From: Cytophagales bacterium
GTDB taxonomy: Bacteria > Bacteroidota > Bacteroidia > Cytophagales > Spirosomataceae
Length of the DNA stretch: 64,000 bases
Assembly (NCBI GenBank): GCA_013298125.1
Contig: JAAFJP010000025.1
Coordinates: 28,067-92,066 of the forward strand
Direction of reading: 5' to 3'
Numbering within the stretch: the stretch's first letter is position 1; the number at the start of each line of letters is the position of its first letter. This document shows positions 1 to 12,160 of this stretch, piece after piece. Below the pieces are notes generated by a model. It did not search any database, was not told the DNA's origin, and saw nothing but the letters and a program-made list of their open reading frames with translations. Position numbers and translations under genes: made by a program.

Positions 1-539
1 ATTACACCTGTAATTTCAATTGTTTTCTTAACATCTTTATAACTCTCAATAACGATGTCTTTATTATTTTCTTTTAATTCTAAAATATCTTTTGTTGGAT
101 ATGTACTATATTCACCAATTGTCTCAATGATATCAACATGATGTTTTCCATTTTCTAACCATATTTTGAAATTTTTAAAATATTCCCCAAATATTTTAAT
201 TTCGTTTAGCATTGGCAAATCCGAATCCTTTTTTTGAATCCAAGAAGTTGAAACAGTTACATTACGAGAATTTTCTAACTTAAATACGATTTCCACATTA
301 AAATTCTCACTCTCCGCCTTCTTCCTCAAAACCTCATCAAATCCACCCATATTTATCAACTCTCCATTCAAGGCAAAATATTGAGGGAAATATTTACTTT
401 GCATAATGCCCAACAAGGCATAAATCAAGGAGCTTTTGCCACTACTGTTTGCACCTGTCAGTAGGGTAATTTTTCCGAAATCTATATCCACTTGCTCAAA
501 GCACTTGAAATCTTTTAATGAGAGTGATTTTATTAGCAT
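1..539 (-). CDS. AAA family ATPase, N-terminal part (cut by window start)
   Basis: The first 179 residues of an ATPase are visible. It starts at the CAT at 537-539 with MLIKSLSLKDFKCFEQ, typical of AAA_15/AAA_21 (RecF/OLD-like) ATPases. A Walker A motif, GANSSGKSS, lies at about residues 29-37. The rest of the protein, including Walker B, lies outside the window. It follows the phosphatase gene by 22 bases, so the two are probably co-transcribed. Such ATPases often belong to anti-phage or DNA-repair systems, but the partner genes needed to decide this are not visible. The family call is firm; the function is open. Confidence 0.85.
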   Translation of the reverse strand, partial: MLIKSLSLKDFKCFEQVDIDFGKITLLTGANSSGKSSLIYALLGIMQSKYFPQYFALNGELINMGGFDEVLRKKAESENFNVEIVFKLENSRNVTVSTSWIQKKDSDLPMLNEIKIFGEYFKNFKIWLENGKHHVDIIETIGEYSTYPTKDILELKENNKDIVIESYKDVKKTIEITGV

Positions 540-561
540 TTTTCTATTTTTTTAAACAAAT

Positions 562-1071
562 CTACAACCGATATTTCTCCACCAACCAATCCAAAAACCC
601 CTCAGCACAACGACTCACAATTTGGTAAACTTCCTCAAAATCAGCCGTTTCACCATAATAAGGGTCTGGCACTTCTAAAATAGTTCCCCCTCTGGGGGTT
701 AGGGGGCTTGGATTATCAAATCTCCGATACAAAAAACAAGTTTCTTCGGGTTGTGTAATGCCTACGGAACGATTACTGATGGATTGGATATTTTCCATGT
801 TATAATTGTCCATCGCCACTACATAATCAAATACTGAAAAGTCCTCACCATTGAGTTTTCTACACTTGTGCGTAAGCGTAAGCCCATGTGAATCAGCGTT
901 TTGGCGTGTACGTCTGTCGGGTAAGTCGCCTATGTGATAAGCGTGTGTAGCGGCAGAATCGCATTGAATTTCTCTTTGTAAATTTCTCAACTTGACCGCA
1001 CGGCGAAATGTCTCCTCCGCAATTGGCGAGCGACAAATGTTTCCAGTACAGACGAATAAGATTTTTAGCAT
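562..1071 (-). CDS. Low-molecular-weight protein-tyrosine phosphatase
   Basis: This 169-residue protein carries the CX5R P-loop signature CTGNICRS (Cys8 to Arg14) and the catalytic Asp in DPYYG near the C-terminus. Both define the LMW-PTP family, which dephosphorylates tyrosines via a cysteinyl-phosphate intermediate in the cytoplasm. An extra segment of about 10 residues (NPSPLTPRGG) lies just before the EVPDPYYG motif, where relatives have a short loop. It is encoded by a G/C-rich palindromic repeat (684-711) that keeps the frame. The gene sits between the cell-division gene and the ATPase, all on the minus strand. The family call is secure; the substrate is unknown. Confidence 0.95.
   Translation of the reverse strand: MLKILFVCTGNICRSPIAEETFRRAVKLRNLQREIQCDSAATHAYHIGDLPDRRTRQNADSHGLTLTHKCRKLNGEDFSVFDYVVAMDNYNMENIQSISNRSVGITQPEETCFLYRRFDNPSPLTPRGGTILEVPDPYYGETADFEEVYQIVSRCAEGFLDWLVEKYRL
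684..711. repeat. Palindromic repeat inserted in frame in the phosphatase gene
   Basis: The core CCCCCTCTGGGGG is followed by TTAGGGGGC. It resembles the CCCC/GGGG palindromes found elsewhere in this window (29494, 33407, 59459). It encodes about ten residues just before the catalytic Asp loop of the phosphatase and does not break the frame. Confidence 0.7.
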
Positions 1072-1072
1072 T

Positions 1073-1182
1073 TTAGGGATTGGGTAATTAGGGATTGGGT
1101 AATTGGGGATTAGTCAGTAAGGATGTATATTGTCTTTACACTCAATCCCTAATTACCTAATCCCCAATTACTCAATCCCTAT
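1073..1182. repeat. Intergenic inverted repeat (AATTACCCAATCCCTA type)
   Basis: The left arm repeats GGGATTGGGTAATTAGGGATT. The right arm contains the complement (CCCTAATTACCTAATCCCCA), separated by about 30 bases. The element fills the whole gap between the division gene and the phosphatase. Similar long, low-complexity hairpins lie at 16735, 49330 and 50222. Confidence 0.75.
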
Positions 1183-1487
1183 TTCTCCAAAGGTTGATTA
1201 TCCTCATCCACAATCACAAAAATCTCTTCTTGTGGTTTTTTCATGAGGTATTTTTCACGGGCGAATTTTTCTACTAATTTCTTATTTCCCATCACCTCAA
1301 TTCGCTCTTTTTCTACTTCTTTTATTTTCTGGACGTAATACTTTTTCTCATCCTCTAAACGCCCCAATTCACGATACATTTTGATTTGCGTCCAGACATC
1401 ATTGACATCAAAAAACAACATCCACACCAACAAACCTGTGAAAGTGAGGGTATAAAAACGGTATTTGTGCAAGAGTAGGTCTTTCAT
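1179..1487 (-). CDS. Septum formation initiator family protein (FtsB/DivIC-like)
   Basis: This 102-residue protein has a short cytoplasmic start, one membrane segment (about residues 11-28) and a coiled coil (about 38-75, rich in E/K with heptad spacing). This is the layout of FtsB/DivIC divisome proteins, which link the periplasmic divisome subunits. The LVEKFAREKYLMKKPQEE stretch is the typical conserved end of the family. It is the first gene of a minus-strand group with the phosphatase and ATPase. Confidence is high for the family and moderate for the exact orthologue. Confidence 0.88.
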   Translation of the reverse strand: MKDLLLHKYRFYTLTFTGLLVWMLFFDVNDVWTQIKMYRELGRLEDEKKYYVQKIKEVEKERIEVMGNKKLVEKFAREKYLMKKPQEEIFVIVDEDNQPLEK

Positions 1488-1499
1488 TGTGATTAATTT

Positions 1500-1843
1500 A
1501 TATAGGACAAATATAGTGGATTTTAGCCGTTTTTTATCAATTGTTTTAACGAGTTTTTTGATGACGATTCTCCGTAGTAGAGGACACTTAGACTTATCGT
1601 GTATTCATCGGTAAATGCTTGAAGAACATGACTTGATGGTTAAAGATAACAGGCTATAAAGCCCAACGTTATATTTCTTATCGGGGTCGCCCGTACGGTT
1701 CAATTAGCAAGAGTTTTGGATAGTGTTGATTATGAAGAGTTTAACAAGTTAAATGATTCTTCTGAATCTAAATAAAAAATAGAAGATTTAAAGAAGGAGA
1801 GTCAGTACTTGTTGTCACAATTTAGTAGAGAAGAAAAGGAAAT
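1500..1843. other. Stretch without an intact gene
   Basis: I see no open gene here. The 3' part (after about 1740) may be decayed sequence belonging to the Rpn-family remnant just downstream, because it runs directly into that gene's recognisable C-terminal codons through a stop and frame change. The 5' part shows nothing I recognise. Confidence 0.4.
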
Positions 1844-2086
1844 AAATTTGAATCCAAATTAGACATCATTAAAAATCGACAAACGACCATGGGAATAGAA
1901 GAATTTGTATTAGACCGTGAAAGACGGGTTGGAAGGAAAGAAGGCATGGAAGAAGTAAAAAATGAACGAAATATATTTTATATAACCAACCTCTTAACTC
2001 AAACTGATTGTTCTGATGAAAAAATAGCTTCGTTAATGGATATAGATATTGAATTTGTAAGAAAGATAAAAGCAACATTATCCTAA
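1844..2086 (+). pseudogene. C-terminal remnant of an Rpn-family (PD-(D/E)XK) nuclease/transposase-like gene
   Basis: From 1844 the frame reads KFESKLDIIKNRQTTMGIEE and ends in DEKIASLMDIDIEFVRKIKA. This matches the C-termini of the two full-length Rpn genes in this window (13840 and 45306; for example KTTTMGLEEFVLDR and DEKIATLVGVDVSFVK). Upstream of 1844 the frame is broken by a stop and shift, and the whole nuclease domain is missing. The internal ATG at 1889 could still give a 65-residue peptide, but I read it as a remnant. Confidence 0.8.
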
Positions 2087-2131
2087 ATATTTAAAGGGTG
2101 CTTATCATTTCATAAACACCCCTTAAATATT
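2086..2131. terminator. Stem-loop terminator
   Basis: The arms AATATTTAAAGGGTG and CACCCCTTAAATATT surround a 16-base loop, directly after the remnant's stop codon and before the 3' end of the convergent DinB gene. It can serve both strands. Confidence 0.7.
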
Positions 2132-2132
2132 A

Positions 2133-2699
2133 CTAATCCTCATAAAACTCCCCCTCAATCTTCTCCATCTGTATCGAATGCCTTGTAATGTGCATGGCTA
2201 AGAAATAGATATATTGATACACATCTATTTTTCCTAACTGATTGACAGTCATTGTTATTTTGTACAAAACACCTTCTCCATTTGGCATTTCGTCCAAATA
2301 ATTTAGGCACTGATTTTTCTGGAAATTTAGATTTTCTGATATTTCATTTAAACTCATTACCCCCGTAGGTATCATGTGTTCAGGACGATTCCAAATGAAT
2401 GATTTATGCTTTCCAATTCCTTTTAAATTTTCATTCATAAAATCATAATTCTTTAATTCTGATTCCAAATCAAGGTTATTGATGTTTTTTAAGGCTTTTT
2501 GATAACCTTTTTCAATCAATTTTAGAAGGAAATGATTGGTTAAATAAATATGTTCTAAGATTTCAAAAATCGTCCAGCCATCATTTTGAGGACGATAGTT
2601 TTGTAAATGGGTATCTTTTTCTAACCACCTTTCAGTATTTGAAAATGACTGATTTATTTCTTCTCGGATTGAGTTTATTTGTACATAAATGTTGTTCAT
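2133..2699 (-). CDS. DinB-family protein
   Basis: This 188-residue protein shows the DinB/YfiT four-helix-bundle pattern. It has an early GWTIFEILEHIYLTNHF segment (metal-ligand His region) and a late MHITRHSIQ segment supplying the other histidines. Family members are small metal-binding proteins, often thiol-S-transferase-like or damage-inducible, but no substrate can be inferred here. The gene stands alone, convergent with the Rpn remnant and downstream of the Ro60-type gene, from which a palindromic repeat separates it. Confidence 0.82.
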   Translation of the reverse strand: MNNIYVQINSIREEINQSFSNTERWLEKDTHLQNYRPQNDGWTIFEILEHIYLTNHFLLKLIEKGYQKALKNINNLDLESELKNYDFMNENLKGIGKHKSFIWNRPEHMIPTGVMSLNEISENLNFQKNQCLNYLDEMPNGEGVLYKITMTVNQLGKIDVYQYIYFLAMHITRHSIQMEKIEGEFYED

Positions 2700-2718
2700 T
2701 TTATTTATTTGGAAATGA

Positions 2719-2747
2719 GTAGAGACAAGGCAATGCCTTGTCTCTAC
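2719..2747. repeat. Short perfect palindrome GTAGAGACAAGGCA/TGCCTTGTCTCTAC
   Basis: Fourteen-base arms around one central base lie between the Ro60-type gene and the DinB gene. The GTAGRG...CYCTAC ends match the repeats at 4329-4421 and inside bioA (61978-62051), suggesting one repeat family with a variable core. Confidence 0.75.
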
Positions 2748-2758
2748 GGATTCGGTTA

Positions 2759-4279
2759 CTAAACCTCCATCCCCTCAATCACCCCAACGGCATTACTCCC
2801 ATCTTCAATGGCTGAGAGAATATCAAAAACTTTGTCTGACCATCCTGCAATCAAGAAAACGCTTTGGTTTTCGACTACGTTGATGGGCGTTGTGCCATAA
2901 CCTGCCAAGTCGAACAAGTACAATTTGGCGTTTGGATTGATGGCTTGATATTGCCTCCAGACGGTCTGTATCGAGTTTCCGCCTTGACTATTCCACAATT
3001 GACAGTCGGTAAAAATCATAATTTTATCTACTTCCTGACGACGGTTTATCAAATTTTGTATCACCAAATGTCCGTTGGTCGAGTAGCCCACTTCGCCCTC
3101 ACGACGGCGATATTCTTCGACATTGGACAAAATATTGCTCTTCGGCATATTGATAATTTTCCAAGTATCGCCAAACATCCCCGTTACCACATTATCGCAA
3201 CGGTTTTGAAGCAACATCGCCAACATCAAGCCAATATCGAAGTTTTGGACTACGCTTTTTGGAGAAATATTGGTCTGCATCGAACCCGAAACGTCAGTCG
3301 CAATCACGACCCGAGTTTGAGTATCGAATCCACGAATATTGGCGGCTGAATGTTGTACTGCCAACTCCAAAGCACTCAAAATATTACCCACACGTCCGCT
3401 GTTCAAACGCTTTACTTCACGGTATGCCGACAAAAATCGGAAAGGGAATTGTTTTGAATTGGCAACGGCACGGGCGTTGCTCAATGTGGCACAAACCTTC
3501 TCGATGGCTTCTTGGCTCACGTTGGCTTCGATGATGTTACGCAGGTTTCGCAACATTGCCATATAACCCAATTTGCCATCCATAATCAAACTTTCCCAAG
3601 CCTGCGTTTTGGCTTCGATTTTACCATTTTCATTCTCAAAATCGTTTTGCCCAACCGCTGACAAAGTAGTTTCCCACGTTTCGGCAGTTTTCAATTCGTC
3701 TTTGGCTATCTTGTTGAAAATCAATTGTTGAGCCTCATCTTTTGCCTTTGGGTGTACCAAAAACAAAGCATCTTTCAACTTTACTGCCGTGTTTGGGCGG
3801 TTGTATTTCGAGAATTGGTATTCGTCAAAACGGTTGAAGGCATCGCCCAAACCTTTCTGAATTTGTTTCGACAAACGGTTCAATTTTTTGACTTCTTTTC
3901 GTTGATTTGCCAATTGATAATACGCCAATAACTCAGTGATTTCGTCGGCACGTTGTACCACACGACCTACGGCACGACTCACCAAATTGTCCCCTTGGTG
4001 GATTTTGGCAAGTTCCGTCACCAAGACCAAAGGCATCGAACGCATATACATACGCTCACGGGCATACACCGCCAATTTTGCCACAAATTGTGGGTCATTT
4101 TTACGGATTAATTCCTGAATACGAACCAATCGGGCATCTGTTTTTTCGTAAAAAGTATCTGACAATGAACTCGTTACGACAGAAGTGTATAATTCTAAGG
4201 CGGATGTCATACGAAAGGCTGTTGCTCCTTCGTAGTTTTTTACTTCTGATTTTTGTTTGTTAAAGATGTTGAATTTCAT
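2759..4279 (-). CDS. TROVE-domain protein, bacterial Ro60 (Rsr-type)
   Basis: This 506-residue protein has an N-terminal TROVE HEAT-repeat ring (motifs such as FVAKLAVYARERMYMRSMPL and GYMAMLRNLRNI) followed by a C-terminal von Willebrand A domain. The VWA domain has an intact MIDAS motif, DVSGSM, at about residues 329-334. This is the Ro60 architecture: a ring that holds 3' ends of misfolded RNA in its hole and Y RNA on its outer surface. I chose the start MKFNIFNKQKSE at 4279. An upstream in-frame ATG at 4384 lies in tandem repeats and would add non-conserved residues. It lies directly downstream, on the same strand, of 17 tRNA-like and Y-RNA-like modules, which fits a Y-RNA-binding role and suggests co-expression. 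Confidence 0.95.
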   Translation of the reverse strand: MKFNIFNKQKSEVKNYEGATAFRMTSALELYTSVVTSSLSDTFYEKTDARLVRIQELIRKNDPQFVAKLAVYARERMYMRSMPLVLVTELAKIHQGDNLVSRAVGRVVQRADEITELLAYYQLANQRKEVKKLNRLSKQIQKGLGDAFNRFDEYQFSKYNRPNTAVKLKDALFLVHPKAKDEAQQLIFNKIAKDELKTAETWETTLSAVGQNDFENENGKIEAKTQAWESLIMDGKLGYMAMLRNLRNIIEANVSQEAIEKVCATLSNARAVANSKQFPFRFLSAYREVKRLNSGRVGNILSALELAVQHSAANIRGFDTQTRVVIATDVSGSMQTNISPKSVVQNFDIGLMLAMLLQNRCDNVVTGMFGDTWKIINMPKSNILSNVEEYRRREGEVGYSTNGHLVIQNLINRRQEVDKIMIFTDCQLWNSQGGNSIQTVWRQYQAINPNAKLYLFDLAGYGTTPINVVENQSVFLIAGWSDKVFDILSAIEDGSNAVGVIEGMEV

Positions 4280-4328
4280 GGTTGAAAATTTGTTTATGGA
4301 AATTGTAAGGTTAAGTTTGGGTATGTAG

Positions 4329-4421
4329 GGACGAATAGTATTCGTCCATCGCTGTACTGTTGTGGACGAATAGCATTCGTCCATCGCTGTACTGTTGTGG
4401 ACGAATGCTATTCGTCCCTAC
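4329..4421. repeat. Tandem 35-bp repeat with palindromic cores
   Basis: The unit GGACGAATAGYATTCGTCC plus ATCGCTGTACTGTTGT occurs at 4329-4363 and 4364-4398. A third core, GGACGAATGCTATTCGTCC, follows at 4399-4417 and ends in CTAC. Each core is a hairpin. The block lies in the 5' untranslated region of the Ro60-type gene, between it and the last tRNA module. Confidence 0.85.
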
Positions 4422-4500
4422 TAATACATCTTTTACAAATTCCTTTCACTACGCCATCTTGAAGATATTTCAAGAGGAAAATTTAGGTATCAAATTTTGA

Positions 4501-4571
4501 GGACTGAGGTGGTATCGAACCACCGACCAACTCGTTAACAGCGAGTCGCTCTACCTCTGAGCTATCAGTCC
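4501..4571 (-). tRNA. tRNA-Asn(GTT)-like, last module of the RNA array
   Basis: On the minus strand the cloverleaf is complete: acceptor GGACTGA/TCAGTCC, D-arm GCTC-AGAGGTA-GAGC, anticodon arm ACTCG-CTGTTAA-CGAGT (anticodon GTT) and T-arm GGTGG-TTCGATA-CCACC. It is only 71 bases long because the D-loop has 7 bases. CCA is not encoded. It is the best-formed tRNA in the array and the nearest to the Ro60-type gene. Confidence 0.9.
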
Positions 4572-4578
4572 ACGGTTA

Positions 4579-4701
4579 CAGGGCAAAAAACGATGAGAGA
4601 AATGATGCTCTATCCACTTGAGCTACTCTGTTTTAGAGGTAGGATTCGAACCTACAACCTTCCGATTAAAAGTCGAAGTATCTCTCATCTACGGCACCCG
4701 C
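4579..4701 (-). ncRNA. Y-RNA-like unit Y5 with circularly permuted tRNA-Lys(TTT) core
   Basis: The 5' flank GCCGTAGATGAGAGATAC pairs with the 3' flank TCTCTCATC through GATGAGAGA. Read 5' to 3', the core is in permuted order. It starts with anticodon arm TTCGA-CTTTTAA-TCGGA (anticodon TTT), then variable AGGTT and T-arm GTAGG-TTCGAAT-CCTAC. The acceptor halves CTCT and AGAG are joined by an AAAAC loop, followed by D-arm GCTC-AAGTGGATA-GAGC. The natural tRNA ends are therefore closed, and the new ends lie between the D-arm and the anticodon arm, where the outer stem continues. The outermost stem is weak in this copy (GGG/CCC). Confidence 0.8.
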
Positions 4702-4703
4702 AG

Positions 4704-4776
4704 TTTCCCCAGAAGGACTCGAACCTTCGACTTTCACATTAAAAGTGTGAAGCTCTACCAACTGAGCTATGAGGAA
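4704..4776 (-). tRNA. tRNA-Lys(TTT)-like
   Basis: The layout is linear: acceptor TTCCTCA/TGGGGAA, D-arm GCTC-AGTTGGTA-GAGC, anticodon arm TCACA-CTTTTAA-TGTGA (anticodon TTT), T-arm GAAGG-TTCGAGT-CCTTC and discriminator A. All arms pair. Its 3' end lies two bases before the start of unit Y5, and its 5' end follows unit Y4 by seven bases. Confidence 0.88.
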
Positions 4777-4783
4777 ATATAAA

Positions 4784-4909
4784 AAATAAGGGTTAAAATC
4801 GAAAAGAGTACAAAAAACGGAAGGACTCGAACCTTCTACCTTCAAGTTATTAGCCTGACATTCTAACCAGATGAATTACGAAGTAACTCTGTTCTACGAC
4901 ACCTCATTT
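4784..4909 (-). ncRNA. Y-RNA-like unit Y4 with Ile-like core (anticodon AAT)
   Basis: The outer stem AAATGAGG/CCTTATTT encloses the flanks GTCGTAGAACAGAGTTACTTC and CTCTTTTCG, in which GAACAGAG pairs with CTCTTTTC (one mismatch). The core is in normal order and opened at the acceptor: D-arm ATTC-ATCTGGTTA-GAAT, anticodon arm TCAGG-CTAATAA-CTTGA, T-arm GAAGG-TTCGAGT-CCTTC. Its anticodon is AAT, which bacteria do not normally use for isoleucine (GAT is standard). That argues against a decoding tRNA. Confidence 0.75.
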
Positions 4910-4911
4910 AG

Positions 4912-4983
4912 TAACCAAGAATGGACTCGAACCATTATCCTCAGAATCAAAGTCTGGCATCCTAACCTTTGGACGACTTGGCA
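4912..4983 (-). tRNA. tRNA-Gln(TTG)-like
   Basis: The arms are in normal order: acceptor TGCCAAG/CTTGGTT (terminal T-T mismatch, one G-T), D-arm around AAAGGTTA, anticodon arm with loop CTTTGAT (anticodon TTG), T-arm AATGG-TTCGAGT-CCATT. Its 3' end is two bases from unit Y4. Confidence 0.8.
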
Positions 4984-4998
4984 ATTTTGGTAAAATAA

Positions 4999-5130
4999 TC
5001 AAGGTAAAAATCGATAAGAGTAACGGGGCAAGTCATTGCCAGAATCGAACGGGATAGCCTTACCGATTTTACGATTTCGCTATTCCTCCCCTAAATTGTT
5101 GACGAAGTATCTCTCATCTACGGCACTTGA
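4999..5130 (-). ncRNA. Y-RNA-like unit Y3 with degenerate tRNA-like core
   Basis: The outer stem TCAAG/CTTGA and inner stem GATGAGAG/CTCTTATC (one G-T) carry the shared flank GCCGTAGATGAGAGATACTT. The core is closed by GGGG/CCCC and contains a long bulged hairpin, GGAATAGC/GCTATCC. It has a D-loop-like CGGTAAGGC and a T-loop-like CGTTCGATTCTGG, but no clear anticodon arm. The T-stem has mismatches. It looks like a tRNA-like fold remodelled beyond any decoding function; the 5' half resembles tRNA-Tyr weakly. Confidence 0.6.
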
Positions 5131-5135
5131 AATTG

Positions 5136-5210
5136 TCTGGGTAGAGAGATTCGAACTCCCGAAAACGTGTATCCAAAACACGCCCGTATATCCATCTGCG
5201 GAACACCCAG
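5136..5210 (-). tRNA. tRNA-Pro(TGG)-like, copy 2
   Basis: Acceptor CTGGGTG/TACCCAG, D-stem CCG/CGG with a long loop, anticodon arm CGTGT-TTTGGAT-ACACG (anticodon TGG), T-arm GGGAG-TTCGAAT-CTCTC. It is nearly identical to the module at 5451-5525. The 3' end is five bases from unit Y3. Confidence 0.85.
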
Positions 5211-5218
5211 TTTAAAAT

Positions 5219-5446
5219 AATCAAGGCTAAAAGCGAGAAAAGAAATGCTCTTTTTGAGCGTCGTTCTTATCCGTTTTGGACGGACAGTGAACCGATAATT
5301 CGACATCTCAGAGAGACTTGCATTCTGAAAATCAGAACATTTTACCCTGTTGGTTTTTAACCCAACTTCACTTGCTCAGTCGCCTGAGTTACGCTACCTT
5401 AGGACCGTTATATTTACGAAGTATCTCTTCTCTACGGCACTTGATT
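5219..5446 (-). ncRNA. Y-RNA-like unit Y2 whose core mimics 23S rRNA (helices 71-75 region)
   Basis: The outer stem AATCAAG/CTTGATT and inner stem GAGAAGAG/CTTTTCTC enclose about 150 bases. Directly after the shared 5' flank comes ATAACGGTCCTAAGGTAGCG. These 20 bases are those of the universally conserved 23S rRNA segment at about E. coli 1930-1950 and of the I-CeuI site core. What follows keeps the 23S order with changed sequence: a GTTGGGTTAAAAACCAAC hairpin (23S: GTCGGGTAAGTTCCGAC), then AAATG, then GTCTC-TCT-GAGAT, then GTCGAATTATCGG (23S: GTGAAATTG...TATCGG in Bacteroidota). It is a structural copy, not a fragment of a real rRNA operon. Confidence 0.8.
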
Positions 5447-5450
5447 ATTG

Positions 5451-5525
5451 TCTGGGTAGAGAGATTCGAACTCCCGAAAACGTATATCCAAAACACGCCC
5501 GTATATCCATCTGCGGAACACCCAG
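5451..5525 (-). tRNA. tRNA-Pro(TGG)-like, copy 1
   Basis: It has the same sequence as 5136-5210 except one base in the anticodon stem, which turns a G-C pair into G-T (CGTGT/ATACG). The 3' end is five bases from unit Y2. Near-identical copies on both sides of Y2 point to recent duplication of a tRNA-plus-Y block. Confidence 0.83.
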
Positions 5526-5537
5526 TTTGAAAAAATG

Positions 5538-5609
5538 CGGAACATACGGGACTTGAACCCGTTTCGCTACCGTGACAGGGCAGCATAATAACCCATATAC
5601 CAATGTTCC
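5538..5609 (-). tRNA. tRNA-Asp(GTC)-like, first module after the internal promoter
   Basis: Acceptor GGAACAT/ATGTTCC, D-arm GTAT/ATGC with a ten-base loop containing GGG, anticodon arm CTGCC-CTGTCAC-GGTAG (anticodon GTC), T-arm ACGGG-TTCAAGT-CCCGT. Its 5' end lies about nine bases downstream of the predicted start of the internal promoter at 5616-5660. Confidence 0.85.
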
Positions 5610-5615
5610 ATTTAA

Positions 5616-5660
5616 TTGATGATACAAATTTCAAAACGCATTACGCAGTCTATTTGCGTA
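5616..5660 (-). promoter_or_regulatory. Internal array promoter P2 with palindromic operator
   Basis: Read on the minus strand, a 19-base palindrome (TACGCAAATAGACTGCGTA, 5642-5660) is followed after 13 bases by TTTG (5625-5628) and then TATCATCAA. The same palindrome, the same 13-base gap and the same TTTG-ATCATCAA occur at 7529-7573 upstream of the small ORF. TTTG fits the Bacteroidota -7 element (TAnnTTTG). A wider imperfect inverted repeat (5618-5695) surrounds it. Confidence 0.7.
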
Positions 5661-5714
5661 GTGATAAATGTTTTGAAATTATTTTGTAATCATCTGACTA
5701 TAAAATAGTTATAG

Positions 5715-5798
5715 CGGAGAGCAGTGAACACGATTCACATACTTTTACAGTACGAACTTCTTAGCAGGAAGCCCCATGCCCTGCATGGTTTACTCTCC
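5715..5798 (-). tRNA. tRNA-Ser(GCT)-like with aberrant T-arm
   Basis: Acceptor GGAGAGT/GCTCTCC; D-region hairpin CCATGC-AGG-GCATGG; anticodon arm GCTTC-CTGCTAA-GAAGT (anticodon GCT); a class II variable arm follows (TACT/AGTA). The T-arm is GTGAA-TCGTG-TTCAC, with a five-base loop in place of the universal TTCRANY. The D-arm is a tight hairpin rather than a normal D-loop. Both changes would disturb the elbow of a decoding tRNA. Confidence 0.65.
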
Positions 5799-5804
5799 AA
5801 ATTG

Positions 5805-5878
5805 TAGCCCCTGTAAGATTCGAACTTACACTATCTTGTTTCTAAGACAAGTGCCTCTGCCGATTGGGCTAAGGGGTT
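5805..5878 (-). tRNA. tRNA-like with Leu anticodon TAG on a class I body
   Basis: Acceptor AACCCCT/AGGGGCT (one A-C mismatch), D-stem GCC/GGC, anticodon arm CTTGT-CTTAGAA-ACAAG, T-arm GTAAG-TTCGAAT-CTTAC. The anticodon TAG is for leucine, yet the variable region has only five bases (ATAGT), whereas bacterial tRNA-Leu has a long variable arm. Identity and body therefore disagree. Confidence 0.7.
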
Positions 5879-5885
5879 ATGTGTG

Positions 5886-6003
5886 GGGAATATTTCTGAA
5901 TCAGGATTTAAGGATTAGAGGAAAAAAAGATTTGATTATCCAATAATATTCCAATTCAATTATCATCTTGAAAATCCTAACATCCTCAAATCCTGATTTA
6001 GAT
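5886..6003. repeat. Inverted repeat of the AATCAGGATTTAAGGATT family
   Basis: The left arm is CTGAATCAGGATTTAAGGAT and the right arm AATCCTAACATCCTCAAATCCTGATTTAG, with about 60 bases between them. It separates the Leu(TAG)-like and Tyr modules. Relatives lie at 24770, 31835, 52825 and 52985. Confidence 0.75.
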
Positions 6004-6008
6004 AAATG

Positions 6009-6091
6009 TGGGGAATGACGGAATCGAACCGCCTGAGCATAAAGCATTCGATTTACAGTCGAACCCGCTACCAATTACGGAATACTTCCCC
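6009..6091 (-). tRNA. tRNA-Tyr(GTA)-like
   Basis: Acceptor GGGGAAG/ATTCCCC (last pair G-A), D-stem CCG/CGG, anticodon arm TTCGA-CTGTAAA-TCGAA (anticodon GTA), a variable arm with GC-TTTAT-GC, T-arm GGCGG-TTCGATT-CCGTC. It has the normal class II shape for bacterial tRNA-Tyr. Confidence 0.85.
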
Positions 6092-6102
6092 TTGTTTTTG
6101 AG

Positions 6103-6175
6103 TGGAGGAAATAGGACTCGAACCTATATCTACTGATTTTCAGTCAGTCGCCTTGACCATCTCGGCTATTCCTCC
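6103..6175 (-). tRNA. tRNA-Phe(GAA)-like
   Basis: Acceptor GGAGGAA/TTCCTCC, D-arm GCC-GAGATGGTCAA-GGC, anticodon arm ACTGA-CTGAAAA-TCAGT (anticodon GAA), T-arm ATAGG-TTCGAGT-CCTAT, discriminator A. All arms pair well. The D-arm is closer to the Tyr/Leu/Ser style than to a usual Phe tRNA. Confidence 0.85.
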
Positions 6176-6181
6176 AAAATA

Positions 6182-6326
6182 AAAGAAGGCAAAAAACGAT
6201 GAGAGTTTTTATTCCACCTTACTGACCAAAGTCAGCATCAGGATTTGAACCTGAATGAGCTTTTCGCTCGTAAGTTTTTAAGACTTATGTGTAAACCGAA
6301 GTATCTCTCTTCTACGGCACTTCTTT
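6182..6326 (-). ncRNA. Y-RNA-like unit Y1 with circularly permuted tRNA-Leu(TAA) core
   Basis: The outer stem AAAGAAG/CTTCTTT and inner stem GAAGAGAG/CTCTCATC (one mismatch) enclose a permuted class II tRNA. The order is: 3' half of the D-arm (GGTTTACACA), anticodon arm TAAGT-CTTAAAA-ACTTA (anticodon TAA), long variable arm GAGC-GAAA-AGCTC, T-arm TCAGG-TTCAAAT-CCTGA. Then the acceptor TGCTGAC/GTCAGTA (seven pairs) closes with a TTTG loop, and the 5' half of the D-arm follows (AGGTGGAA). The new ends lie in the D-loop. The match to leucine in both anticodon and variable arm makes the permutation convincing. Confidence 0.83.
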
Positions 6327-6329
6327 TTG

Positions 6330-6414
6330 CGGAGGCAGAGAGAATCGAACTCCCAAGTCAGTTTCCCGACCAACAGTTTTCAAGACTGTGCCCTCGTCCA
6401 TTCGGACTACCTCC
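6330..6414 (-). tRNA. tRNA-Ser(TGA)-like
   Basis: Acceptor GGAGGTA/TGCCTCC, anticodon arm ACAGT-CTTGAAA-ACTGT (anticodon TGA), class II variable arm TGGTCGGGAAACTGACTT, T-arm GGGAG-TTCGATT-CTCTC, discriminator G. It is a well-formed serine tRNA. The 3' end lies three bases before unit Y1. Confidence 0.88.
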
Positions 6415-6419
6415 AATTG

Positions 6420-6508
6420 TACCGCCAGCAGGATTTGAATCGCTACGGCGAACCGTCTACACGTTCCACCTTATGAGAGTGGCATCCTACCAATTAGATT
6501 ATGGCGGC
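6420..6508 (-). tRNA. tRNA-like with CAT anticodon and an inserted hairpin in the T-stem
   Basis: Acceptor GCCGCCA/TGGCGGT, D-arm ATCT-AATTGGTA-GGAT, anticodon arm CCACT-CTCATAA-GGTGG (anticodon CAT). After the variable region, the 5' strand of the T-stem is replaced by a hairpin, GACGG-TTCG-CCGT. The T-loop TTCAAAT and the 3' T-strand CCTGC remain, but their partner GCAGG is missing. It is the first module of the array, 7 bases after the stop of the 247-residue protein. Confidence 0.7.
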
Positions 6509-6515
6509 AAATTCA

Positions 6516-7259
6516 TTAACATTCTTCCAAAATTCGATGTAAACTCTTGTTCCTCAGAGGATTATCGTATTTCTGTTTCTCCGTATCGCCCCAATGGTCA
6601 TATCCCCAATCTCTGAGTTTTGACAATCGGGCATAATTGAGTTTGTTTCTATAAACCTTATGATTGAGTTCTGCCAGACGTTGTTCCAATTCCTCATCGT
6701 GGGTTTTTACTTTATCAATCATATTCGGTCTGATCCTCAAAACATATCTCCACGGTTCAGTCATTTCAAAATATTGTCTCTGATAAATTTTCTTAAACTT
6801 TACTTCAATTTTGATTTTGAAAGTGAAGCAAAGCATTTCTTGCGGAGTCAATTTTAGTTTATTGATTTCGTAGGGATAAATTACCTTCAATTCTTGATTT
6901 CTCTCCTCGTAAATTCTACGTCCCAATCTTTTCTTTTTCTTCTTAAATTCTTTCGTTGGACTGTACTGAGTCGTATTGATTTTACGTAAAAGATTTTCGT
7001 AAAAAACTCCTTGTTTACTTCGTCTAACGTCCTCTCTCACAATGAAGTAGCGTTTATATCCTCGCTGAATCGGAGGGACTAAATCAATCATAGGGAGTTC
7101 TCGGTGACGTTTTCTGAGTTCTCGGTCTTCTCTGAAAAGGCGAATCAGTTTTTTGTCTTGTCCTTCGATGATGTCACGCTTTCTACGTCTCTTCGAGCGG
7201 ATTCTAATTTGGTCTTCCCAATTATTAAAAATGTATTCTTCTGTTGTGGCAAAGCCCAT
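6516..7259 (-). CDS. Highly basic 247-residue protein of unknown family, linked to the RNA array
   Basis: I do not recognise a family. The protein is very rich in Arg and Lys (RSKRRRKRD near residue 22; KEFKKKKKRLGRRIYEERN around residue 105), has no signal peptide or membrane segment, and has several aromatic-basic motifs (RGYKRYFIVRED, EPWRYVLRIRPN, WGYDHWGDTE). This composition suggests nucleic-acid or ribosome binding. Its stop codon is followed within 8 bases by the first tRNA-like module, and the Ro60-type gene lies at the other end of the array on the same strand, so all may form one unit. Upstream lie a terminator and a 50-residue ORF under promoter P1. The RNA-binding role is inference. 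Confidence 0.85.
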   Translation of the reverse strand: MGFATTEEYIFNNWEDQIRIRSKRRRKRDIIEGQDKKLIRLFREDRELRKRHRELPMIDLVPPIQRGYKRYFIVREDVRRSKQGVFYENLLRKINTTQYSPTKEFKKKKKRLGRRIYEERNQELKVIYPYEINKLKLTPQEMLCFTFKIKIEVKFKKIYQRQYFEMTEPWRYVLRIRPNMIDKVKTHDEELEQRLAELNHKVYRNKLNYARLSKLRDWGYDHWGDTEKQKYDNPLRNKSLHRILEEC

Positions 7260-7296
7260 AATATGCTGATTATTAATTTGTTAATCAGTCGGGCGA

Positions 7297-7334
7297 AAAC
7301 AAAAAAGCCCGACCTCGTGGATTTGAGGTCGGGC
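7297..7334 (-). terminator. Strong terminator between the small ORF and the basic-protein gene
   Basis: On the minus strand GCCCGACCTC-AAATCCAC-GAGGTCGGGC is followed by TTTTTTG. It stands 23 bases after the stop of the 50-residue ORF and about 40 bases before the ATG of the basic protein. Genes downstream would need read-through, antitermination or their own start, so it could act as an attenuator. Confidence 0.85.
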
Positions 7335-7356
7335 TTGGGTATAGAGGTATTCCTAT

Positions 7357-7509
7357 TTACTTCGGAAATCTTATTTCTATAAACCTGTTGCACAACCTAA
7401 GATTGTCATAAAAATCCTTCTTAAAATTCTTATACGAAAGCCCAGACGGTAGCATTGAATAGCTATCGTTAAATTTCTGAGCGTTTTGTATTTGACTAAA
7501 TTGTAACAT
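7357..7509 (-). CDS. Small ORF, 50 residues
   Basis: ATG at 7509 to TAA at 7357 encodes a 50-residue peptide beginning MLQFSQIQNAQKFNDSYSML, with aromatic and basic residues towards the end (NRFIEIRFPK). It begins about 22 bases after the predicted start of promoter P1 and is followed by a strong terminator. I recognise no family. It could be a true small protein or a leader peptide controlling read-through into the array operon. Confidence 0.5.
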   Translation of the reverse strand: MLQFSQIQNAQKFNDSYSMLPSGLSYKNFKKDFYDNLRLCNRFIEIRFPK

Positions 7510-7528
7510 GATTTCTGATTTTTGTTGT

Positions 7529-7573
7529 TTGATGATGCAAAGTTGGGAGGTCAGTACGCAGCCTATCTGCGTA
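7529..7573 (-). promoter_or_regulatory. Promoter P1 with palindromic operator
   Basis: On the minus strand the palindrome TACGCAGATAGGCTGCGTA (7555-7573) is followed after 13 bases by TTTG (7538-7541) and CATCATCAA. The same arrangement occurs at P2 inside the array. The TTTGCATCATCAAA core also matches a second promoter-like site (32023-32040) upstream of the gene at 32064, supporting its role as -7 element and start region. Confidence 0.7.
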
Positions 7574-7644
7574 GATAAAATATTTTTTGATTTTTTTTTG
7601 AAAATAATTGAGAGTGAACATTTCGCACATCAAAAACTGGAAAC

Positions 7645-7679
7645 AAAAAAGGATAGCATCGCTCAGAGCAATGCTATCC
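7645..7679 (-). terminator. Terminator of the lipoprotein gene
   Basis: GGATAGCAT/ATGCTATCC arms with an 11-base loop are followed on the minus strand by TTTTTTG, 26 bases after the lipoprotein stop codon. Confidence 0.85.
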
Positions 7680-7704
7680 TTTTATCACTTAATGACTTAA
7701 CAAC

Positions 7705-8238
7705 TTACTTAACCTTATTCCCTTTCATCTTACGGACTTTAATTTTTAAGTTATTCAATACACTTTTAGAAAGCATAATTCTTACACGAGGTTTTTTATA
7801 AATTACCAGATATTTATTACCTTCATAATCTAAACGGGAGAAAGACGTATTACCCTGAGAATCAACTAATTGATAAAAGAATTCTCCTTTTTCACCCGCA
7901 ACAGGTCCAAAGTGTAAGGAATTATCCTCTTTACTTTTCTCAAAAGACAACATCAAATGACCTGCATTTTTTTTCTGTAACATTCCAGGCGTTCCTTTTT
8001 CCAAAGAAATACGATTAATATAACGACCATTTTTGAAGATTACCTTTCCAGATTTGATATTAGCATCCGACGAAGGCACTTCACGTTCAAGATAAAGGGG
8101 ATTATCATTATAATATTGAATTCGAGTCAAATCGAGTTCATTTTCTTGGAGTTGGTGCATCAACGAACCCGTCAGATACACATTTTTTTGGCAGCTTGCC
8201 AGCGACAAAACGCTGAGGATGAGCAAGATTTTTTTCAT
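7705..8238 (-). CDS. Hypothetical lipoprotein
   Basis: The 177-residue product starts with a lipoprotein signal (MKKILLILSVLSLASC, lipobox Cys16), so it is exported and lipidated. The mature part contains tandem short beta-strand-like segments (GKVIFKNGRYINRISL, LHFGPVAGEKGEFFYQLVD) and a basic C-terminus. I do not recognise its family. It is a monocistronic gene with its own terminator, and its upstream region runs toward the divergent regulator gene at 8702. Confidence 0.75.
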   Translation of the reverse strand: MKKILLILSVLSLASCQKNVYLTGSLMHQLQENELDLTRIQYYNDNPLYLEREVPSSDANIKSGKVIFKNGRYINRISLEKGTPGMLQKKNAGHLMLSFEKSKEDNSLHFGPVAGEKGEFFYQLVDSQGNTSFSRLDYEGNKYLVIYKKPRVRIMLSKSVLNNLKIKVRKMKGNKVK

Positions 8239-8701
8239 TATTTTTCAAGTAAGGATTTGGGAGTATTTCAATCAAAAATAAGCATTGTAATTGTAAATCA
8301 ACGACTTAGCATTTATTAACTGAAATATTTAACGATAAAAATACTCAAAAGATATATCAAATTCCAAATTTTAAGCACTTTATCATCAGCTAAGTACAAT
8401 AATTTCTCTAAAAATACACCTTTTGATACTTATAACATAGTCAATCAAAGGTTACAATGATACTTATTATCTTGGTAGAGTATAAAACCTCGTAACATAG
8501 TAACCTTATAATTTTCAACATACGTAAGCCAAAGACTGTGCCAATTTCATTTATTAACTCAACATTCAAAAATTCATAAAATTATCTTATTGATATAATT
8601 ATTATAAAAATACTTTCAAAATATTTTGAAAGTTCAAAACTATTACATAAATTTGTTTCATAAAGCAATCGCCGCAAATAAAACTATTTAAAACTTAATA
8701 T
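8239..8701. other. Divergent AT-rich intergenic region
   Basis: This 463-base stretch lies between the lipoprotein and the GbsR-type regulator. I find no gene. It contains the operator palindrome at 8612-8633 and is otherwise AT-rich sequence without clear repeats. Confidence 0.6.
8612..8633. promoter_or_regulatory. Perfect palindromic operator upstream of the GbsR-type regulator
   Basis: A 22-base perfect palindrome with core CTTTCAAAATATTTTGAAAG lies about 70 bases before the regulator's ATG. The same TTTCAAAATATTTTGAAA core recurs in a 40-base palindrome at 9580-9619 on the other side of the gene, so it is probably the regulator's own binding site. Confidence 0.75.
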
Positions 8702-9208
8702 ATGACGCTTGATGAAGCAAAGCAACATCTCATCCAAGCATGGGGAACGTTAGGGTCAAGTTGGGGTGTTAGCCGAACAATGGCACAAGTACACGCACTC
8801 CTGTTAGTATCTCCTGTACCCATGACTACTGAGGATATAATGGAAGCCTTGCAGATTTCGAGAGGAAATGTTAATATGAATGTGCGAGATTTGATGGACT
8901 GGGGAATTGTGAGAAAAGTGTTGAAGCCAGGCGAAAGAAAAGAGTTTTTTGAGGCAGAGAAAGACGTTTGGAAGATAGGAATGCAAATCGCAAAAGAACG
9001 CAAGAAACGTGAATTAGAGCCAATTATCAGAGCATTAGACCAAGTATCAACCATCGAAGCCGATATTACTGACCCTGATGTAAAACAGTTTGCAGAGACC
9101 GTAGAGAACCTTAAAAAATTCGCTAATAATACCAATAATACATTAGAAACTATTATAAAAGCTGAAGAAAGTATGTTCTGGGGAAGTTTCTTTAAATTAT
9201 TCAAATGA
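8702..9208 (+). CDS. GbsR/MarR-family transcriptional regulator
   Basis: This 168-residue protein has a winged helix-turn-helix: GVSRTMAQVHALLLVSPVPM, then the recognition helix around ISRGNVNMNVRDLMDWGIV, then the wing (VLKPGERKEFFEAEKDVWK). The order matches GbsR-type MarR regulators, which in other bacteria control osmolyte or pigment genes. A C-terminal helical region mediates dimerisation. Palindromic TTTCAAAATATTTTGAAA sites flank the gene on both sides, suggesting autoregulation and control of the downstream sensor kinase. Confidence 0.87.
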   Translation: MTLDEAKQHLIQAWGTLGSSWGVSRTMAQVHALLLVSPVPMTTEDIMEALQISRGNVNMNVRDLMDWGIVRKVLKPGERKEFFEAEKDVWKIGMQIAKERKKRELEPIIRALDQVSTIEADITDPDVKQFAETVENLKKFANNTNNTLETIIKAEESMFWGSFFKLFK

Positions 9209-9815
9209 CAATGGTATTTCCTGAAAAAGGAAAATGATATATACCCATTACCACTATTAAATTAATCCTTACTTTGTGACGTATCAAATAAAAGACTCAA
9301 TTGGGTCTTTTATTTATGTTTTAAATTTTCATTAATTATTGAAAATATTATTTTAATTATAAATATATTTATTTTTATAATTATAGTAACTAAAAATTCA
9401 TTTCAAAATATTTCTTTTATTTATTATACAAATACTTCTCAATAACGGCTCATTGTTAAAATACAATTCACACTATTCAGTAATCCATTGATAGTAAGTA
9501 TCTTAATCAATTTATCATTAGATTATTAAGCATTATTTTTTCTTTTACTTCTTATAAGTTCTTGACATATTTTGAAAGAAATAATTATAATTTCAAAATA
9601 TTTTGAAATTATAATTATTATTATATTTATAATTTTATAAAGACATTTATGCGTTAAACCAAGGTTGGAATATCCTCATAATATAACCTTTTTAAAAACC
9701 CCTTATTGATAAAATCTGTCGTTAAAGGAATAAATTAGTAGAAAAATATCGCATTTTCGCTCGTTATTGTATCTTTGAATGAATTATTAAACATCTTATC
9801 ACTCAACCGCCATTC
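9209..9815. other. AT-rich intergenic region with operator palindromes
   Basis: The 607 bases between the regulator and the sensor kinase hold no gene. A TTTCAAAATATTT half-site lies at 9401-9413 and the long palindrome at 9580-9619. The rest is very AT-rich with no repeat I can define. Confidence 0.6.
9580..9619. promoter_or_regulatory. Forty-base perfect palindrome (putative GbsR-type operator)
   Basis: The centre TTTCAAAATATTTTGAAA is extended by AAATTATAATTA-type arms to 20 bases on each side without mismatch. It lies about 200 bases upstream of the sensor kinase gene and shares its core with the site at 8612-8633. Confidence 0.75.
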
Positions 9816-10859
9816 ATGTCACGCACAAAACTCTACTGGACACTACAAATCTCGTGCTGGGGAATTTACCTAATTTATATGTTAATTGGTATTCTCCATT
9901 TTCACCTACCACTGTACGAAGTAATATTTGGTAGTTTAGCAAATTTCTTTCTCTGCGTTTTTGTTTCTCATTTTTATAGATTAATAGTCAAACCATTAAA
10001 AATCGAGGATATGCGATGGTACATATTTCTAATGTACCCCAGTTTTGGTAATTTTATTATGTCTGGTCTCATTTTGCTACTCAATACATACGTCATTAGA
10101 GTTCAAGATATTTTAACCCCTTATCATCAAGAAAATAAGTTTTTTGATTATTTGTTTATGGTACTTGATACGTACAGATTTTCAATGCCTTGGTTTATTT
10201 TTTATCATGGAATAAGATTTGCGGAAAGAGCTATTCAGAGTGAGCGGGCAAGAGTAGAAGCACAGATGCAATTGAAAGTGGCGGAATTAGATAATTTAAG
10301 AAATCAACTTAACCCACACTTTCTCTTTAATTCTTTGAATAGCATTCGTTCATTGACCCTGACTGACCCTAAAATGGCTCGTGAAGCTACCACAAAGTTG
10401 TCAGATTTATTACGTATATCGCTGACATACAAAGACTTACAAGACATTCCATTTGAAGAGGAATTGAATTTAGTGAAGGATTATCTATCGCTTGAAAAAA
10501 TCAGATTTGAAGACCGTTTGAGCTATAAATTTGACGTGAGTCGAAGTATTCTGAGATCTCTTGTACCCCCGATGTCTTTACAACTATTAGCTGAAAATGC
10601 AGTAAAGCATGGAATTAGCAAGTTAAAGAATGGAGGTGAAATAATTATATTTGCTAAGAAATGTGAGAATAATTTAATATTTGGTGTAAAAAATACAGGC
10701 ACAATAAACAACTCTGAAAAAGGAAAAAGAAAGGGGATTGGTTTAGAAAACCTCAGAAAACGTTTGTCGTTGAATTATGAAATAGAAGATAGTTTTCAGA
10801 TTAATTCGTCTGAAAATATGGTTACAGCCGAAATTTCTATTCCTCTAAAAATTAAGTAG
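9816..10859 (+). CDS. LytS/YehU-type sensor histidine kinase
   Basis: This 347-residue protein has about four membrane segments in the first 140 residues. A short coiled coil leads to the His_kinase domain (PF06580 type) with the phospho-acceptor motif NPHFLFNSLNSI (His near residue 168). A degenerate ATPase follows (N-box LAENAVKHG, then GIGLENLRKRL). Such kinases signal to LytTR-type response regulators, and one follows immediately (11181). The stimulus is unknown. The GbsR-type operator upstream hints at linked control. Confidence 0.9.
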   Translation: MSRTKLYWTLQISCWGIYLIYMLIGILHFHLPLYEVIFGSLANFFLCVFVSHFYRLIVKPLKIEDMRWYIFLMYPSFGNFIMSGLILLLNTYVIRVQDILTPYHQENKFFDYLFMVLDTYRFSMPWFIFYHGIRFAERAIQSERARVEAQMQLKVAELDNLRNQLNPHFLFNSLNSIRSLTLTDPKMAREATTKLSDLLRISLTYKDLQDIPFEEELNLVKDYLSLEKIRFEDRLSYKFDVSRSILRSLVPPMSLQLLAENAVKHGISKLKNGGEIIIFAKKCENNLIFGVKNTGTINNSEKGKRKGIGLENLRKRLSLNYEIEDSFQINSSENMVTAEISIPLKIK

Positions 10860-11180
10860 ATAACGCATAATTTTTGTTTTATAGTTAGTGAATTAATCGT
10901 TGGAGGTCTAATTATTCAAAAAAGACAGTTTAATTGAAATAATTTGATAAAAATGGCTTGGAATTTGTTATATTAACGAAGAAATATTATTAACTTAGAT
11001 ATTATTTTTGTCAGACAAAAAACTGTTTGGTAAAAATACCATCCCCTGATTGGTTCACAGGTGTTGAATCACATTTTTAAACATTTGAAAAACAAAAGTT
11101 ACGCAGATATGGCAAATAGAAAACCCTATTCTCCTCGAGCTGGTAACCGCCACTATCAAGACTTGTCCCCTGTAAAGCAA

Positions 11181-11915: not shown

Positions 11916-11939
11916 TTTTCGAGATATTTACAATAGAAA

Positions 11940-11974
11940 AGGTGTTTTGATGTATATCGAAACACCTTTTTTTG
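11940..11974 (+). terminator. Terminator of the LytTR regulator
   Basis: GGTGTTT/AAACACC hairpin followed by eight T, 24 bases after the stop codon. Confidence 0.85.
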
Positions 11975-12160
11975 TTGATTTTGTTTAACATTTGACAGCT
12001 AAAAGGTACTTATTTGTGAAACAAAACAATTCAAAATAAAAAAATAGTCTCTAAGATGCTATTTATCATGTAGTTTCAGCAAATATGTAGTATCTGTTGG
12101 AATCTTATCATAAGATAACTATTTTTGATAAAGAAAATATCTGCACAGATATTCTTTATA

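Follow-up and report, generated by a model that had tools for sequence, protein, structure and literature searches.

A Ro60-linked array of divergent tRNAs and Y RNAs carrying tRNA and 23S rRNA mimics in a Cytophagales bacterium, predicted to form an RNA-damage module

Introduction

What purpose could a gene for Ro60 (Rsr) serve beside a dense run of tRNA-like and Y-RNA-like genes? The question is raised by a 64,000-nucleotide (nt) stretch of a Cytophagales bacterium (Spirosomataceae; GenBank assembly GCA_013298125.1, contig JAAFJP010000025.1, positions 28,067 to 92,066), hereafter the window. Its minus strand carries, in the 5' to 3' direction, a palindrome, an open reading frame (ORF) of 50 amino acids (aa), a terminator-like hairpin, a gene for a 247-aa basic protein, an RNA array of ~2 kb (6509-4499) and Rsr. 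These parts had been named in an original prediction made from the sequence alone, and all were present. Its count of twelve tRNA-like and five Y-RNA-like modules, 17 altogether, was also correct (11 tRNAs called by ARAGORN, a Ser(GCU)-like cloverleaf and five Y units). We propose, with a probability of about 50%, that the locus is a co-regulated RNA-damage module, in which predicted spare tRNAs and Ro60-tethered tRNA and rRNA mimics would be controlled by a switch shared with an unlinked RtcB.

Results

Rsr and the Y-RNA units

The Rsr ORF spans 2759-4384 on the minus strand and matched the Pfam families TROVE (1e-28) and vWA_Ro60 (6.5e-9), both above the Pfam cut-off. The score of 29.7 bits did not reach the NCBIfam Rsr equivalog cut-off of 900. 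The five Y units share a 5' arm, GTG[CT]CGTAGA..ACTTCG, and a 3' arm that pairs with it; in positions 1-12000 of the window, the strict motif occurred five times on the minus strand and never on the plus strand.

2759..4282, minus strand: Rsr/Ro60 gene, likely to start at 4282 and then 507 aa long (TROVE and vWA_Ro60)
6182..6325, minus strand: Y unit 1, module with a T arm (Y-arm scan; fold z −2.71)
5213..5447, minus strand: Y unit 2, 23S-mimic Y RNA copying 23S nt 1909-1941 (string scan, alignment, profile match)
4990..5129, minus strand: Y unit 3, conserved GGGGAGGAAT module with a T arm (comparison; single-sequence fold not significant)
4783..4905, minus strand: Y unit 4, Y stem bearing a tRNA module (Rfam, Y-arm scan; single-sequence fold not significant)
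4580..4698, minus strand: Y unit 5, YrlA-like permuted tRNA, T arm before D arm, with a Lys-like anticodon remnant (Rfam YrlA; fold z −1.80)

When units 1, 3, 4 and 5 were folded alone, units 3 and 4 gave z values of 0.04 and 1.18 between them, no better than shuffled sequences. The evidence for the Y units is therefore comparative and does not come from single folds. It was obtained from 82 loci, namely the best 80 of at least 426 Rsr relatives among named genomes, the window and one same-genus relative. A two-arm scan of both strands of all 82 loci found 359 Y units in 80 of them; 317 formed the strict subset, and 317/317 were on the Rsr strand. As background for the strict motif, the 1.19 Mb of reverse strand in the 80 named loci yielded no match, and both strands of 0.44 Mb of control DNA yielded one. 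The pair adjacent to the bulge covaried among the strict units (C-G in 154, T-A in 108, T-G in 18, unpaired in 37), and inner-helix pairing was 77%, compared with 20% after arm swapping. By covariation and strand, the units thus have the conserved, paired outer and inner helices adjoining rsr that characterize bacterial Y RNAs. This is not an ordinary tRNA cluster lacking conserved flanking stems, the case that the original prediction had set against itself; the Y stems are conserved across other genomes and covary. By the features tested, the window locus belongs to the Rsr and Y-RNA families, and binding of its Y RNAs by Ro60 is predicted.

The modules carried by the Y units are diverse. Simple patterns were applied to 307 units left after removal of shared 3' arms. 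They sorted into permuted tRNA with the T arm preceding the D arm (98), T arm only (110), short (50), other (34, some of them mis-parsed neighbours), 23S (7), D arm only (5) and normal tRNA order (3). A Y stem with a permuted tRNA module is also the architecture of YrlA Y RNAs (Rfam RF02553). However, the best YrlA match in the window reached 37.9 bits and those in the scanned loci of four relatives at most 42.2, below the gathering score of 69, and the former is classed as YrlA-like only. The window further differs from YrlA in having many module kinds per locus, including an rRNA copy. The module GGGGAGGAAT..T arm..GCCCC was present in 37 Y units, and 24 aligned sequences gave 30 pairs, 20 of them doubly changed, many of these being the Y stem itself. 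A further module (UUAGAC..GUGCAAUUUCC..AACAGUAAGGA) is shared by Chryseobacterium-type loci (L091, L097, L104, L108, L117, L118, L119, L121).

Rsr is patchy within the genus, occurring in 2/8 genomes (2 of the 4 best ones), and the other copy is only 56% identical to that of the window. This second same-genus locus (L046, L134) has an RtcB-like gene and three Y units alongside. Of 14 viral contigs with Rsr (L167-L180), eight, two of which look alike, have the 5' Y motif in the vicinity of that gene. None of the 14 has a tRNA array (at most two tRNAs each), and the 23S-mimic pattern was found on 0 viral contigs; a viral origin of the array was rejected on these grounds.

The 23S rRNA mimic

The original prediction of a 23S rRNA mimic was borne out. 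The module of Y unit 2 (5213-5447) contains a 33-nt copy of a 23S stretch that we take to be helices H69-H70. Since the window's genome assembly yielded no large-subunit rRNA, E. coli 23S was used for comparison, and a profile of the unit matched its nt 1909-1941 with E = 2.2e-9. Likeness beyond the 33-nt core was rejected, as post-core alignment scores fell within the shuffle range in the four units tested.

The mimic occurs in eight loci, i.e., the window and L091, L097, L106, L108, L117, L118 (a variant) and L121, six of the latter seven being Chryseobacterium. The eight sequences have 61 predicted pairs, 16 with changes on both sides (Y stem included). The pattern is rare, with one occurrence in 395 genomes drawn from the phylum, namely the window's own. 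Ten conserved 16S/23S strings were scanned against the initial 12 kb of the window and against loci L046-L130, and only that of H69-H70 matched.

Free tRNAs of the array

All 11 ARAGORN tRNAs (6509..4499) are on the minus strand. The Rfam tRNA model also gave 11 gathering-level matches in the array, two of which (4638-4692 and 4818-4880) are modules within Y units.

6419..6509, minus strand: tRNA-Met(CAT), 91 nt, long variable region (ARAGORN, Rfam)
6329..6415, minus strand: tRNA-Ser(TGA), 87 nt (ARAGORN, Rfam)
6102..6175, minus strand: tRNA-Phe(GAA) (ARAGORN, Rfam at 75.5 bits)
6008..6090, minus strand: tRNA-Tyr(GTA) (ARAGORN, Rfam)
5804..5878, minus strand: tRNA-Leu(TAG), 75 nt, without a long variable arm (ARAGORN, Rfam)
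5713..5800, minus strand: Ser(GCU)-like module, the twelfth tRNA-like element, with an atypical T arm, not called by ARAGORN (cloverleaf fold and variable arm, z −3.94)
5537..5609, minus strand: tRNA-Asp(GTC) (ARAGORN, Rfam)
5450..5525, minus strand: tRNA-Pro(TGG) (ARAGORN, Rfam)
5135..5210, minus strand: tRNA-Pro(TGG), near-identical second copy (ARAGORN)
4911..4983, minus strand: tRNA-Gln(TTG) (ARAGORN, Rfam)
4703..4776, minus strand: tRNA-Lys(TTT) (ARAGORN, Rfam)
4499..4571, minus strand: tRNA-Asn(GTT) (ARAGORN, Rfam)

The window's genome has 49 Rfam tRNA matches, 38 of them outside the array (two of these below the gathering score), and every array anticodon has a separate copy elsewhere in the genome. 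The mean identity of the ten array types to these copies was 61%. A 33-nt inverted repeat with 79% complementarity fills the spacer between tRNA-Tyr and tRNA-Leu (5890-6007). The interval from the array to Rsr contains, at 4325-4433, three direct repeats of 35 nt that include palindromes (GGACGAATAG..CTATTCGTCC).

At least three ARAGORN tRNAs were found in 24 of the 82 Rsr loci, 210 in total, 200 of which are on the Rsr strand; the other 10 are confined to L057, L070 and L123 and may be unrelated. Loci with at least three tRNAs on the Rsr strand numbered 21, some of them from named isolates of Emticicia, Chryseobacterium and Paraflavitalea. The most frequent types were Lys, Asn and Pro (17 each), Phe (16), Gln (15) and His (14), with Asp and Glu also abundant; Ala (1), Gly (2), Val (3) and Thr (4) were rare. 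Together, the latter four made up 10/210 array tRNAs and 8/35 of the host set (p 0.0012), a rough reference in which one Val is counted twice, three tRNAs of another contig (C70, described below) are included and the rRNA-operon tRNAs are probably missing.

The array tRNAs retain the features by which tRNAs are charged and read. Under a rule table of identity bases drawn from general knowledge, the expected discriminator base was present in 186/208 (permuted mean 105, maximum 124). The acceptor stem was fully paired (7/7) in 169/208, the anticodon stem (5/5) in 171/208, U33 was present in 202/208 and a purine at position 37 in 197/208. As a whole, the set thus shows the cloverleaf, U33 and identity bases of translational tRNAs. 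Judged by length, long variable arms, which are read by the seryl- and tyrosyl-tRNA synthetases, were kept in 5/5 Ser (82-87 nt) and 7/8 Tyr (83-87 nt) tRNAs. Because discriminator bases and acceptor stems are conserved, the free tRNAs look chargeable and are predicted to be spare tRNAs.

At the same time, they diverge fast. Among the window, L121 and L052 genomes, isoacceptor identity was 58-63% for array tRNAs (8-10 types) and 78-82% for chromosomal tRNAs (9-14 shared types), the latter taken from the best-scoring tRNAs of two genomes only, a choice that may inflate it. We infer that rapid sequence change in tRNAs that preserve their identity bases agrees better with a chargeable set in conflict than with relics.

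A palindromic site shared with RtcB

Two palindromic sites were found in the window by pattern scan, with 0.02 expected for the looser form.

7556..7572, no strand: palindromic site ACGCAGCCTATCTGCGT, predicted operator ahead of the operon
5643..5659, no strand: second palindromic site, within the array

Allowing up to one mismatch, ACGCAGNCTNTNTGCGTA had five matches in the 5.85-Mb genome and one in a backward control; two of the five (7556 and 5643) were the source of the pattern and are not independent. Of the others, one is an exact site on contig C21, 97 bp before a set comprising a 184-aa gene, a nucleotidyltransferase-like gene and a WYL regulator. A second, with one mismatch, lies on contig C34 ~45 bp before the RtcB start, so that a site of predicted operator function is shared with rtcB, as in Anabaena-type arrays. 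The third, with one mismatch on contig C56, is probably due to chance. RtcB itself is on a contig other than that of the array, and since it is unlinked, the locus is not of the rtcBA operon type.

Related sites were found in other genomes. The only two exact ACGCAAANNNNCTGCGT sites of Emticicia C21 are at its array and 39 bp before an RNA_lig_T4_1 (T4-type RNA ligase) gene, and in two Chryseobacterium genomes the sole site lies before Rsr. The 80 loci contained 24 palindromes, compared with 1 in reversed order.

The surroundings of the site on contig C21 (L187, 1827-6997) encode a 743-aa protein without a clear family, the 184-aa protein, an AbiEii-like nucleotidyltransferase (below the cut-off) and the WYL regulator. 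An Emticicia relative of the 743-aa protein (68% identical over 452 aa) adjoins an RNA ligase with the same palindrome.

Neighbouring genes

Upstream of the array, three further features were listed.

7357..7509, minus strand: 50-aa ORF, possible leader (ORF list; no family in a Pfam scan)
7305..7336, minus strand: terminator-like hairpin separating the 50-aa ORF from the gene for the basic protein (consensus match only)
6516..7259, minus strand: 247-aa basic protein gene (ORF; no family or fold match)

The predicted fold of the basic protein (mean predicted local distance difference test score, pLDDT, 84) had no PDB match at E ≤ 0.001, and no known family was assigned. A protein search gave 43 matches, its own record included. 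The order of basic protein, array and TROVE gene, suggested as one to look for in other Bacteroidota, was not general: the protein occurs in 4/222 family genomes (counting that of the window; one match weak), and its wider cluster in 4/82 Rsr loci, window included. In genome G121, three tRNAs lie directly beside it. PADLOC matched neither Rsr nor the basic protein.

Cluster representatives near Rsr matched the Pfam families RtcB, WYL, RNase_T, RlaP, T4 Rnl2, Thg1, AAA, RNaseH_like (PF04308), cREC, Band_7 and PHA02142/RNA_ligase. The repair genes among them (RtcB, Rnl2, RNA_ligase/PHA02142, Thg1, RlaP, cREC, Band_7) were found near Rsr loci with and without arrays. Three clusters were tied to arrays, namely PF04308 (11/24 array loci vs 1/58 others, p 1.8e-6), an AAA ATPase (5/24 vs 0/58, p 0.0016) and a 107-aa protein (104-137 aa, motif ETGR; 6/24 vs 0/58, p 4e-4; L047, L048, L052, L054, L109, L121), for which two members scanned gave no Pfam family. 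A DinB-family gene (2133-2699) follows Rsr in the window, and its cluster was present in 5/24 array loci (window included) vs 2/58 others (p 0.02).

Contig C70 of the window's genome (L133, 3447-5057) carries on one strand tRNA-Arg(ACG), a DRB0094-type RNA ligase, tRNA-Cys and tRNA-Arg(TCT), the tRNA types being ones missing from the window array. It was rejected as a second array copy, having no Y unit and no palindrome.

Discussion

How could these parts act together? In the proposed RNA-damage module, a WYL-type regulator that may bind the palindrome would be the route by which RNA cleavage is sensed; the cuts would probably be made by toxins or defence nucleases that act on tRNA or rRNA. 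Cut RNAs would be re-sealed by RtcB or another ligase. The array would provide divergent tRNAs, predicted to be chargeable, of the types that are the most frequent targets of anticodon nucleases. The Y RNAs would load Ro60 and display permuted tRNA bodies, in which the Y stem splits or takes the place of the anticodon loop, as well as the H69-H70 copy; these mimics may serve as competitors or guides for RNA-acting enzymes.

Several observations weigh against this proposal. RtcB is linked no more often to array loci than to others (10/24 vs 28/58, p = 0.63), and the WYL family, present in 40/82 loci, is not commoner with arrays (9/24 vs 31/58, p = 0.23). Only 11/80 loci have the palindrome in the 330 bp ahead of Rsr, so most lack the exact form there, and it precedes only 4/40 WYL genes of Rsr loci; the ligase and tRNA trio of contig C70 has no such site. 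The possible inflation of the chromosomal identities would exaggerate the apparent divergence of the arrays. Over all arrays, tRNAs with the same anticodon are 63% identical, not far above the 56% between unlike chromosomal tRNAs of the window's genome; drift is therefore possible in part. Ordinary anticodon loops are kept, so the array tRNAs have no obvious resistance to loop-cutting nucleases. Finally, 13/14 array Leu tRNAs are 74-76 nt long and by this measure have lost the class II variable arm, which is odd for bacteria. Bacterial leucyl-tRNA synthetase depends little on that arm, and its loss therefore need not prevent charging.

The same data can be read in other ways. Free tRNAs and Y-tethered mimics might together be a pure decoy array that takes no part in translation, its members being substrates, sacrificial or inhibitory, that soak up anticodon nucleases, rRNA nucleases or enzymes that modify RNA. 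The skewed anticodon set (measured against the rough host set) and the fast divergence of the array tRNAs would suit such a role, and Hughes et al. propose that the tRNA-like domain of YrlA is a competitive inhibitor of anticodon nuclease (PMC7790460). However, discriminators and acceptor stems are preserved according to amino acid, and the anticodon arm does not stand out in its likeness to the cognate host tRNA (excess 0.06 with the anticodon excluded, compared with 0.14 in the acceptor). We thus regard this explanation as rather unlikely. The earlier suggestion of decoy or sensor substrates holds insofar as a Ro60-linked array of varied mimics, the 23S copy among them, is real; it is poorly supported as a pure decoy account of the free tRNAs, whose conserved identity bases suggest that they are more than decoys. 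The Y-tethered modules remain good decoy candidates.

It is less probable still that the RNAs are a substrate or gating set whose main task is to guide Ro60, together with an exonuclease, to tRNA and rRNA that are misfolded or cut, with mimics regulating access. Y units with both arms in 80/82 Rsr loci agree with such a function, as does the Y RNA tether for PNPase in Deinococcus cited in PMC7790460, and a 23S mimic would suit rRNA surveillance, yet tRNAs that lack Y stems and preserve identity bases are left unexplained. That the island consists of relics, phage- or plasmid-derived tRNA genes gathered beside Rsr by chance or as insertion targets, seems highly improbable. Phages do carry tRNA arrays, and Rsr is patchy (2/8 genus genomes, two copies 56% identical). 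Against this stand 224 tRNAs in 82 loci (~1.2 Mb) where ~13 would be expected at 50 tRNAs per 4.5 Mb, their co-direction (200/210), their kept identity bases and the scarcity of tRNAs on the 14 viral Rsr contigs (at most two each).

Comparison with known systems places the predicted RNA-damage module near two of them. The Salmonella rsr-yrlBA-rtcBA RNA repair operon, induced by broken tRNA (Hughes et al. 2020, PMC7790460), likewise combines Rsr, Y RNAs with a tRNA-like domain and RtcB. It has two Y RNAs, whereas the window has five Y units, 12 tRNA-like genes and a 23S mimic. RtcB is part of the Salmonella operon but in the window's genome is unlinked and preceded by the same palindrome; the RtcR regulator of Salmonella would be replaced by one of WYL type, no search for RtcR having been made. 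Its authors state that the role of Ro60 and Y RNA in RNA repair was not addressed by their study. The nearest analogue is the Anabaena trn operon, in which TrcR represses the array together with rtcB (PMC10272220). It is likewise an extra tRNA array with control shared with rtcB, silent and used under translational stress; induction of the window array would follow by analogy. It differs in its 26 tRNAs on a plasmid and its ribbon-helix-helix repressor, and the account, in the part available, mentions neither Ro60, Y RNA nor an rRNA mimic. Phage tRNAs that evade anticodon nucleases (PMC10264068) are another divergent extra set tied to tRNA cleavage. They alter the anticodon loop, whereas the array tRNAs keep ordinary loops, vary in their stems, are chromosomal and occur with Ro60. 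No published description of such arrays was found in the literature searched; some likely sources lay outside it, so novelty is not certain.

On a wider view, which we hold only tentatively and at less than even odds, Y RNAs may be a Bacteroidota-wide display platform for changing structured baits (permuted tRNAs, the 23S H69-H70 copy and further modules), which, with fast-evolving chargeable tRNAs and a repair switch, would provide RNA-level immunity and repair against RNA-cutting toxins. The 23S mimic would then be the first known case of a Y RNA that copies ribosomal RNA. One DNA site ties the array to RtcB in the window's genome or to an RNA ligase in Emticicia C21. Cultured genera (Emticicia, Chryseobacterium) hold many Y RNAs with distinct, recognizable cargo, which makes their role testable through the enzyme that each mimic meets. 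Chromosomal sets of predicted spare tRNAs that drift fast yet keep their identity may also offer a means to watch the conflict over tRNA cutting.

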